A stretch of DNA of 64,000 bases from Olsenella sp. An188. Lineage in GTDB: Bacteria > Actinomycetota > Coriobacteriia > Coriobacteriales > Atopobiaceae. Of the stretch, positions 9,211 to 10,712 are shown in pieces. The stretch is from assembly GCF_002160255.1 (NCBI RefSeq), contig NZ_NFKF01000001.1, positions 248,001 to 312,000 on the forward strand. Reading direction: 5' to 3'. How positions within the stretch are numbered: position 1 is the first letter of the stretch; each line of letters begins with the position of its first letter. Both the position numbers and the translations under genes were made by a program. The notes beneath the pieces were generated by a model. The model had not been told where the DNA came from. It searched no databases and saw only the letters and a program-made list of their open reading frames with translations.

Positions 9211-9382
9211 CGCATCGTGTACAGTCCGCCTGCCCCCTCCCTTGCATCGTGTACACGGCAACGGAATCGAGGTTCTTCTCGCCAGGTCATCTACCTGCGA
9301 CTTTGCGAGAAGAACCTCGGCTCGAGGGCCGCAGGGGTGTACACGATGCGCGGACGGACCACCCGAGGGTGTACACGATGCG
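9211..9382. repeat. Left palindromic repeat element flanking the nuclease gene
   Basis: The centre is a hairpin with 15-bp perfect arms, CGAGGTTCTTCTCGC (9268-9282) and GCGAGAAGAACCTCG (9305-9319), with an inner AGGT/ACCT pairing. On its left are two inverted sites CGCATCGTGTACA (9211) and GCATCGTGTACAC (9244), 32 bp apart. On its right are two direct sites GTGTACACGATGCG at 9337-9350 and 9369-9382, also 32 bp apart. The whole element is therefore a large dyad. Confidence 0.85.
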
Positions 9383-9523
9383 AGGGCGGGGCAGGCCGTC
9401 CGGGCGAGCGCAGTGTGTTCGTCCTGTGTTGGCCCGAAAGACCCCGACGCGCCCCAGCTTTCTCCCTCCCGTAAGCTGAGGCTCATCTAGCAGCGCAAAC
9501 GCGTCGCGGCGCGCGACGCGTCC

Positions 9524-9560
9524 GAAGATTGCCGGAAGACAGCTGGAAGATTGCCGGAAG
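9524..9560 (+). repeat. Direct repeat GAAGATTGCCGGAAG, two copies 22 bp apart
   Basis: Two identical 15-bp copies start at 9524 and 9546, about two helical turns apart, immediately before the start of the nuclease gene. They could be operator sites or duplicated leader sequence. Confidence 0.6.
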
Positions 9561-9586
9561 GCCGCATCCGTAGAGTCGACGGCACC

Positions 9587-10543
9587 ATGATTACCGTATG
9601 CGACATATCCGCACTTGCCCGCTGGAGCGAGAGCGGGCTCATCGACCGGCTGGGACAGCCGCTTCAGAGCCTGCCGGACCGGAGCTGGTCCCTCCCCTCG
9701 GCCTCGGAGGTCCATCCGGAGGCGCTCGCACCCGCCCGGCTCGAGGCATCGCCCGCACGCCCCCTCCACGTGCTCGTCAGCGCGCGGGAGGAGCGAGCCC
9801 GCTCGGAGCGCATCCGCTGCCACGTGTGGTCCGCACCGCTGCCCGACGGGGCGCTCTACCAGCTCACCGACGAGGTGCTTCTCGCCTCGCCCGGCTTCTG
9901 CCTGCGACAGATGACCCCGGGGTCGAGCCTCGCCCGCATAGCGAGCGCCGGCACGGAGCTCTGCGGGTCATACGGACGCTCGCCCGGCGCGCCGCGCGGC
10001 TTCTACGCGCGGGAGGCGGTCGCGACGCCGGAGGGGCTCGTCGCGGAGGCCGCGGGCGCGCGAGGATACGGGGCGCGGAGGCTGCGGGAGGCGCTCGCCC
10101 ACGTCGTCGCCGGGTCGCGCTCGCCGATGGAGACGGTCGTGGTGCTGCTCTTCACCCTGCCGGTCGAGGTGGGTGGCTGCGGCCTGCCGCGCCCAGAGCT
10201 CAACTTCCGCCTCGAGATTCCCCCGTCGCTGCAGCTGGCCATCGGGAGCCCCTACGTGCGCGCGGACCTCGCGTGGCCGGAGTGGCTCGTCATCCTGGAG
10301 TACGACAGCTACGAGTTCCACGGGACGCCCGGGCAGGTCGACCGCGACAGCGTGCGCAACGAGGGGCTGCGCGACCTGGGGTGGATGGTGCGCTCCGTGA
10401 CCTCGGGGATGCTGAGGAACGACCGCATGCTGACCGAGCTCGCGGGCAGGGTGGCCGCCCGGATGGGTCGCACGCTGCCGAACGACCCGCACTACCTGCA
10501 ACTCCGTCACGACCTGGTCCGCGATCTGCTGCGCGGGCCCTGA
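9587..10543 (+). CDS. Hypothetical protein with C-terminal Vsr/DUF559-like endonuclease domain
   Basis: A 318-residue protein I cannot name. Its C-terminal third, YVRADLAWPEWLVILEYDSY then EFHGTP and later RNEGLRDLGWMVRSVT, resembles the DUF559/Vsr-type endonuclease fold, where an Asp, a Glu and a His line the active site. Related folds occur in AbiEi-like proteins and very-short-patch repair enzymes. The N-terminal 200 residues show no motif I recognise. The ATG at 9587 is tentative because no good ribosome binding site is visible; a TTG at 9551 is also in frame. It stands alone, flanked on both sides by inverted copies of the same repeat element, which suggests a mobile or selfish cassette or a repeat-associated host gene. 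Confidence 0.6.
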   Translation: MITVCDISALARWSESGLIDRLGQPLQSLPDRSWSLPSASEVHPEALAPARLEASPARPLHVLVSAREERARSERIRCHVWSAPLPDGALYQLTDEVLLASPGFCLRQMTPGSSLARIASAGTELCGSYGRSPGAPRGFYAREAVATPEGLVAEAAGARGYGARRLREALAHVVAGSRSPMETVVVLLFTLPVEVGGCGLPRPELNFRLEIPPSLQLAIGSPYVRADLAWPEWLVILEYDSYEFHGTPGQVDRDSVRNEGLRDLGWMVRSVTSGMLRNDRMLTELAGRVAARMGRTLPNDPHYLQLRHDLVRDLLRGP

Positions 10544-10574
10544 GCGGCGCCTTCGCCCCCAGAGGGGCACCCTC

Positions 10575-10712
10575 CGCATCGTGTACACCCCCTCGGTCCT
10601 AGGCCTGCGACTCTTCTCGCAAAGTCGCAGGTAGATGACATGACGAGAAGAACCTCGACCCCGCTACGGTGTACACGATGCGACGGGGCGCCCAGCGGGT
10701 GTACACGATGCG
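10575..10712. repeat. Right repeat element flanking the nuclease gene, inverted relative to the left one
   Basis: The segment CTTCTCGCAAAGTCGCAGG, then TAGATGAC, then CGAGAAGAACCTCGA is nearly identical to the reverse complement of the left element over about 45 bp. One inverted site CGCATCGTGTACAC (10575-10588) lies on its left, and two direct sites GTGTACACGATGCG at 10669-10682 and 10699-10712 lie on its right. Here the left hairpin arm is degraded, and CTGCGACT/AGTCGCAG offers an alternative hairpin. Confidence 0.82.

Follow-up and report, generated by a model that had tools for sequence, protein, structure and literature searches.

A Vsr-type nuclease gene and the palindromic elements that bracket it in Olsenella sp. 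An188: a candidate repeat-nuclease system

The nuclease gene and its flanking elements

The window, that is, the whole stretch of 64,000 nucleotides that we analyzed, comes from a gut bacterium of the Olsenella/Thermophilibacter group (Atopobiaceae). Within it, a gene encoding a 318-residue nuclease-type protein (9587..10543, + strand) is located between two inverted elements of about 140-170 bp, each consisting of inward-pointing GTGTACACGATGCG iterons and a conserved asymmetric core. The left (upstream) palindromic element, at 9211..9382 and with no strand assigned, contains four iterons, two per side pointing inward around an interior of about 80 bp: the outer left one at 9212..9224 (CTGTACACGATGC, one mismatch, - strand), the inner left one at 9244..9256 (GTGTACACGATGC, - strand) and, on the gene side, the inner and outer ones at 9337..9349 and 9369..9381 (both + strand). 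The right (downstream) palindromic element, at 10575..10712 and likewise unstranded, contains three iterons around an interior of about 80 bp, one on the gene side (10576..10588, - strand) and two on the far side (inner, 10669..10681; outer, 10699..10711; both + strand). The core, whose consensus is CCGCAGGTAGANGNNTTGGCGAGAAGAAC, occupies 9272..9306 (- strand) in the left element and 10619..10653 (+ strand) in the right one.

A first-pass annotation of this DNA had described some 45 bases shared by the two flanks in opposite orientation, and we recovered this match (9268-9312 against 10613-10657 reversed) together with the sites it had placed around each flank, namely GTGTACACGATGC at 9212 (one mismatch), 9244, 9337 and 9369 on the left and at 10576, 10669 and 10699 on the right. 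Over 121 nt each, the inverted arms 9230-9350 and 10575-10695 show a complementarity of 81%. Twelve GTGTACACGATGC matches with at most two mismatches occur in the window versus 1.28 expected, a number that 0 of 100 shuffles reached.

The same annotation had spoken of inverted copies of a hairpin repeat; the best fold of the right copy differs from that of the left and does not give the same perfect hairpin. The conserved repeat unit is the whole arrangement of inward iterons and asymmetric core, and not the hairpin alone. As single strands the elements fold strongly (z -5.4 to -9.7), so a hairpin may still be the substrate. Three near-identical 11-bp direct repeats of the GGAAGATTGCC type were also observed at 9524-9565, in the interval that separates the left element from the start codon.

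The best start of the gene is the ATG at 9587, the point where all orthologues align; the same alignment disfavors an alternative TTG at 9551. Ten base pairs before the ATG there is a putative -10 box, TAGAGT (9571..9576, + strand), and the TATAGT that aligns with it in orthologues points to a leaderless promoter. The upstream regions of the orthologues carry related but variable motifs, with TATAGT near the ATG.

The predicted structure of the protein is confident (pLDDT 91.5) and comprises two parts, a putative AbiEi-like domain (approximately residues 1-178) and, C-terminal to it, a Vsr/I-Bth0305I-like PD-(D/E)XK domain (approximately residues 179-294). Residues 179-294 align with the Vsr-like homing endonuclease I-Bth0305I (3r3p; Z 9.4, rmsd 2.2, 94 residues), with Vsr itself (1vsr, Z 7.3; 1cw0, Z 7.2) and with TnsA (Z 5.9). 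Residues 1-178, predicted alone with a pLDDT of 87.0, found their best fold match in the C-terminal domain of the AbiEi antitoxin (6y8q; Z 7.0, rmsd 3.8, 116 residues), followed by Rv2827c (1zel, Z 5.1); these were the top two of the 89 chains aligned, with Z values below 8. The winged helix of AbiEi is absent from the model, which starts at the AbiEi C-terminal-type domain.

Foldseek alone returned no significant match for either model, and the fold matches come from a second look with VIA-align, considered together with the invariant residues; the Z values are moderate, so that the fold match is not decisive by itself. E182, E238 and H245 never vary, and D227 is kept at 90% or more, making Vsr-type PD-(D/E)XK catalysis plausible as a prediction from fold and conserved residues. 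The window protein produced only a sub-threshold Pfam match, to MTES_1575 (16.7 bits, curated cut-off 38.2), and no match in an NCBIfam search. Among 31 family members scanned against Pfam, MTES_1575 (PF18741) was found in 23 and DUF559 (PF04480) in 9, the other hits being trivial. The nuclease-type (Vsr/DUF559) assignment of the first-pass annotation is thus borne out by the Vsr-type fold and by the Pfam matches within the family.

Bracketing elements and dispersed copies among relatives

The family has 6-14 members per genome in all 31 genus genomes searched (its own included) and is present in 62 of 149 Coriobacteriia genomes. The orthologue group of the window gene includes 20 other members from 18 other genomes, with identities of 52-64%. 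We looked at whether these homologues always carry the same flanks: all 20 are bracketed, with one element some 200-450 bp ahead of the start and another usually 10-110 bp beyond the stop, but the flanks are not the same, each lineage having its own version. The arrangement at the window locus is real and represents one instance of a widespread pattern. No gene besides the nuclease gene is found inside the cassette, between the two elements. Across the orthologue group there are 1-4 iterons per arm, spaced by 19-22 or 30-32 bp; they invert across the gene in all orthologues, whereas the two copies of the asymmetric core run in opposite directions in some and in the same direction in others.

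The iteron itself differs by lineage. It is GTGTACACGATGCG in the window genome, GTGTACACAACGCG in congener G025, GTGTACATACCCTC in G011, G016, G017 and G021, GTGTACGTACCCT in G006 and G020, GTGTACGTACCCGG in G007 and G014, GTGTACGTAACCGG in G012, CTGTACATAACCG in G010, and GTGTACATACCCGG in G024, while G003, G013, G015, G026 and G030 have TGCGCATAACC/TGCGCATACCG types.

Bracketing was scored as the best inverted match between the 600-bp flanks of a gene, for which the maximum among 72 control genes was 14. In the orthologue group (window included), 20 of 21 loci scored above this control maximum or, in the case of locus L088 with exactly 14, level with it (p = 6e-11). The single exception in the test was L075, whose right element lies about 670 bp past the stop. 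The control maximum was also exceeded by 11-12 of 26 distant paralogues, three of them scoring 99-137, and by 9 of the 25 best loci outside the genus; a Gordonibacter homologue (35% identity) lies between ATCGCGTTTTGTGTATAGGTT palindromes. About half of the 26 distant paralogues and most of the 25 extra-genus loci showed no bracketing repeats in this test; in the family, bracketing is thus frequent without being universal.

The exact 12-mer GTGTACACGATG occurs 16 times in the whole 2.14-Mb genome (reversed control, 0), nearly always as inverted, inward-facing pairs 92-93 bp apart. A search for further copies of the hairpin unit located window-type elements at six places beyond the two flanking ones (C1:203969, C11:136459, C11:186556, C11:191925, C13:31106 and C14:68080). 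The first-pass annotation had tied its reading to the repeat recurring elsewhere and standing beside homologues, and both were found. The window 12-mer was absent from 29 of 30 congeners, the remaining one having a single copy.

Other iteron types are dispersed in other genomes. The inverted pair TATGTACACN{60,90}GTGTACATA gave 19 elements in G011, 11 in G016, 12 in G017, 20 in G021, 14 in G024 and 11 in G010, and these six genomes with 11-20 TATGTACAC-type inverted pairs are those whose orthologue has that iteron (Fisher ~4e-5). The remaining genomes had 0-2, except for G008 (9) and G003 (5), where no resident gene of the window orthologue group clearly matches the TATGTACAC-type elements. 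The nine elements in G008, of the TATGTACACTGTTGC type and unaccompanied by a matching-group orthologue, are either orphan repeats or partners of an unrecognized cognate gene.

A second pattern, TACGTACN{65,95}GTACGTA, was predicted from the flanks before the search to be multicopy in G006, G020, G012, G014 and G007. The TACGTAC-type pairs numbered 35, 8, 35, 8 and 7, respectively (Fisher ~4e-5), some tandem-iteron elements being counted more than once; outside the five predicted genomes there were 5 in G029 and 0-1 in all others.

The window genome (G000) also has a distant paralogue, at C12:92775, that lies between copies of another palindrome; the 12-mer GCATCCTTGATG of this palindrome is present in 26 copies, compared with 0-3 in other congeners except G029 (11). 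A third gene, the paralogue at C13:50167, has its own palindrome with 3 copies. Given the own repeats of these two paralogues, at least three gene-repeat pairs coexist in this genome.

Solo elements of these families were also noticed in the window. One at 4690-4744, ATTGGGTGGCATCCTTGATG...ATCAAAGATACCACCCAAT, belongs to the second family and is cognate to the G000:C12:92775 paralogue; another at 61530-61616, AAAAATAACCCACATTTG...AACCAAATGTGGGTTATTTTTT, matches the repeat found downstream of the G000:C13:50167 paralogue, with 3 exact 12-mer copies in the genome. At 59712-59950, some four palindromic units, GTGCAGGTTGCGGACGGT...GACCGCAACCTGCACGT, stand in tandem and probably represent yet another family. 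CTTCTCGCC/GGCGAGAAG is strongly over-represented in the window (32 versus 2 in the reversed control), in coding as well as intergenic DNA (e.g., at 9275, 31186 and 58872), and GAG-AAG codons or codon usage may be behind much of this excess.

Recognition, copying and competing explanations

For 19 orthologues, protein distance follows iteron distance (Mantel 0.59). The distance of the N-terminal half, controlling for the C-terminal half, correlates with iteron distance (partial Mantel 0.65, p = 2e-4), and the reverse control gives -0.24 for the nuclease (C-terminal) half; these tests control only partly for shared ancestry, and the N-terminal half varies more in any case. On the DNA side, the core (76 elements) holds about 33 bits; its distance to one inner iteron is 13-14 bp, and its distance to the other is often 20 or 30 bp. 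This spacing, along with that of the iterons (19-22 and 30-32 bp), suggests a helically phased complex on double-stranded DNA. The idea of a universal core in all families was unsupported beyond the window orthologue group, the core not being found in distant-family elements.

Among 20 elements of G006, interior identity averages 0.61 (maximum 0.94), compared with 0.30 for the flanks, and the edges at the iterons are abrupt; the contrast in the window genome and in G011 is similar, if weaker. Some G006 elements (L236-L255, e.g., L241, L250 and L252) resemble mosaics in which a TATTGCA...TTGATG half and a GGGG-type half are joined at the core, an appearance that, as judged from the letters, suggests recombination or conversion at this position.

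The orthologues are spread over at least seven chromosomal contexts; each of these fits a single clade, which implies at least six changes on the tree. The window cassette is placed between an M20 peptidase gene and rpmB. Examination of relatives for empty sites, as the first-pass annotation had proposed, found one in G028 at this very context, with joined flanks that match contiguously; in other congeners, the slot is occupied by other palindrome families. Only one solo element, L120, gave a clean comparison of occupied and empty sites: it is present in G011, G021 and G016 and missing in G017, where a deletion at a GCGG microhomology fits equally. At empty sites we obtained no target-site duplication or precise donor-target junction, the flanks being too diverged or the difference explicable by deletion.

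Searching the larger insertions of relatives (L158, L159, L161, L165 and L181-L185) with hmmsearch yielded no further nuclease gene. The L158 slot appears to contain a sigma-factor-like operon, judging by sequence only. In the L161 slot, G016 carries a genuine RAYT (411-1259, - strand; PF01797 Y1_Tnp, 4.3e-13) between GTGGGACAGTTACCCC/GGGACAGAAACCTCC repeats at the place where G011 has a solo nuclease-type element, offering a useful internal comparison.

Could the protein be a DNA-binding (auto)regulator, with the elements as its operators, the dispersed copies as its regulon, and a nuclease domain that is vestigial or otherwise used? We consider this unlikely. It would agree with the resemblance of the N-terminal domain to AbiEi/Rv2827c, autoregulators acting at promoter inverted repeats (PMC7319586), and with the position of the upstream element near a promoter-like -10. 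However, the match is to the C-terminal domain of AbiEi, the winged-helix DNA-binding domain is missing from the model, the second element always comes after the stop codon, and the nuclease residues are conserved. Moreover, the copy number of one site class ranges from 7 to 35 among relatives, and the copies share a long non-iteron interior, unlike what convergent operators would do.

Even less likely, in our opinion, is that a conventional mobile element or MITE family owes its movement to a different transposase, with the nuclease gene as a passenger between two copies. A cargo gene enclosed by two inverted MITE-like elements would indeed resemble the window locus, and the genus does include a genuine RAYT accompanied by its own repeats; yet independent capture would be needed for all 20 orthologues and for the paralogues with unrelated sites, iteron type follows the bracketed protein (above all its N-terminal half), and the cassette contains no other gene. 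We regard as least likely of all a role in genome organization or self-recognition, with dispersed sites that serve chromosome structure, replication control or defense self-marking under slow vertical inheritance, despite the presence of one gene per site class, the long-term conservation within context and the links of fold relatives to defense. Chromosome-architecture systems are expected to hold their sites constant across a genus, whereas here the sites differ between species and copy number varies widely; furthermore, a PADLOC search gave no convincing match for the family.

The explanation we prefer, and deem reasonably probable, is a repeat-nuclease system operating in the manner of REPIN-RAYT but built on an unrelated enzyme, the protein maintaining and spreading its own palindromes. 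Both readings offered by the first-pass annotation, a repeat-nuclease system and a mobile cassette, find support in the data, which for mobility is indirect. What the sequences show is the architecture, its specificity for the lineage, the dispersal, the copy-like identity between elements, the relocation and the empty site; we infer that the nuclease protein binds the iterons, cleaves DNA and drives the copying. In such a scheme, the protein would bind the iterons of its own lineage, chiefly by way of its N-terminal domain and in phase along one face of the DNA helix; the bound inverted arms would form a closed complex, and the Vsr-type domain would then nick or cut in the core or close to it. 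Starting from the broken element, repair or replication would copy the 100-180-bp unit into new intergenic places and also convert existing copies, and through this conversion and copying all copies in a genome would stay matched to the resident protein. The whole cassette (gene plus two elements) would relocate rarely, and the dispersed chromosomal copies would be non-autonomous elements.

The broader proposal, for and against which we see about equal weight, is that of a new DNA mobility class, in which a Vsr-type PD-(D/E)XK nuclease with an AbiEi-like recognition domain would be the sole dedicated enzyme copying its own iteron-flanked palindromes, as several pairs of separate specificity per genome, across Coriobacteriia. 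If true, part of the large uncharacterized group of DUF559/AbiEi-like proteins in actinobacteria would gain a function. The dozens of protein-iteron pairs that occur in nature also constitute a data set for learning how Vsr-type proteins read DNA.

Comparison with known systems

DUF559/MTES_1575 (PF04480, PF18741) are the best Pfam matches, the window protein being far under the curated cut-off, and we found no described link of these families to repeats in the literature. A search for DUF559, AbiEi or Vsr with palindromic repeats, or for Olsenella/Coriobacteriia repeats, retrieved no description, in a literature that came mainly from outside the subscription journals. The fold of the catalytic domain is shared with the Vsr mismatch endonuclease and I-Bth0305I; unlike these, the present gene is not intron-encoded, has no second gene in its cassette, and is accompanied by its own flanking palindromes and multicopy dispersed sites.

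With the type IV antitoxins AbiEi/Rv2827c the window protein may have in common the fold of the N-terminal domain, and that family binds inverted repeats, through which its members autoregulate from their own promoters (PMC7319586). The window protein, however, lacks the winged-helix domain and has an added nuclease domain, the cassette has no partner toxin gene, and the repeats are on both sides and dispersed. The two features of an AbiE type IV toxin-antitoxin system, a winged-helix AbiEi and an adjoining AbiEii nucleotidyltransferase gene, are thus not found in the cassette.

The closest parallel in organization is REPIN-RAYT, where, as here, a single gene (there the RAYT gene) lies between two inverted palindromic repeats, inverted doublets are dispersed in the same genome, gene and repeat co-vary, and the gene stays at one locus within close relatives (PMC2817692, PMC3116915). 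The enzyme here is AbiEi-like plus Vsr-type PD-(D/E)XK, and a Pfam scan of 31 members detected no Y1/HUH domain (PF01797), although the same scan finds Y1_Tnp (4.3e-13) in the RAYT of a congener. REPs measure 20-40 bp, often exceed 100 copies and in many cases have GTAG/CGTC-type heads, whereas the present elements measure 100-180 bp, carry in each arm 1-4 tandem iterons at helical spacing, besides a conserved asymmetric core, occur in tens rather than hundreds (3-35 found) and have no fixed tetranucleotide head. Since the enzyme is unrelated, the nuclease family is not a member of REPIN-RAYT. REPIN-RAYT has so far been regarded as particular to IS200/IS605-type tyrosine transposases; if the present system is independent, a single-copy enzyme with many small palindromes would be an arrangement through which genomes have repeatedly come to host populations of sequences. 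The comparison with RAYTs drawn by the first-pass annotation holds at the level of organization: in both cases, a single distinctive gene is bracketed by two inverted palindromes, doublets are dispersed in the genome, each repeat family has one gene, and gene and repeat co-vary.
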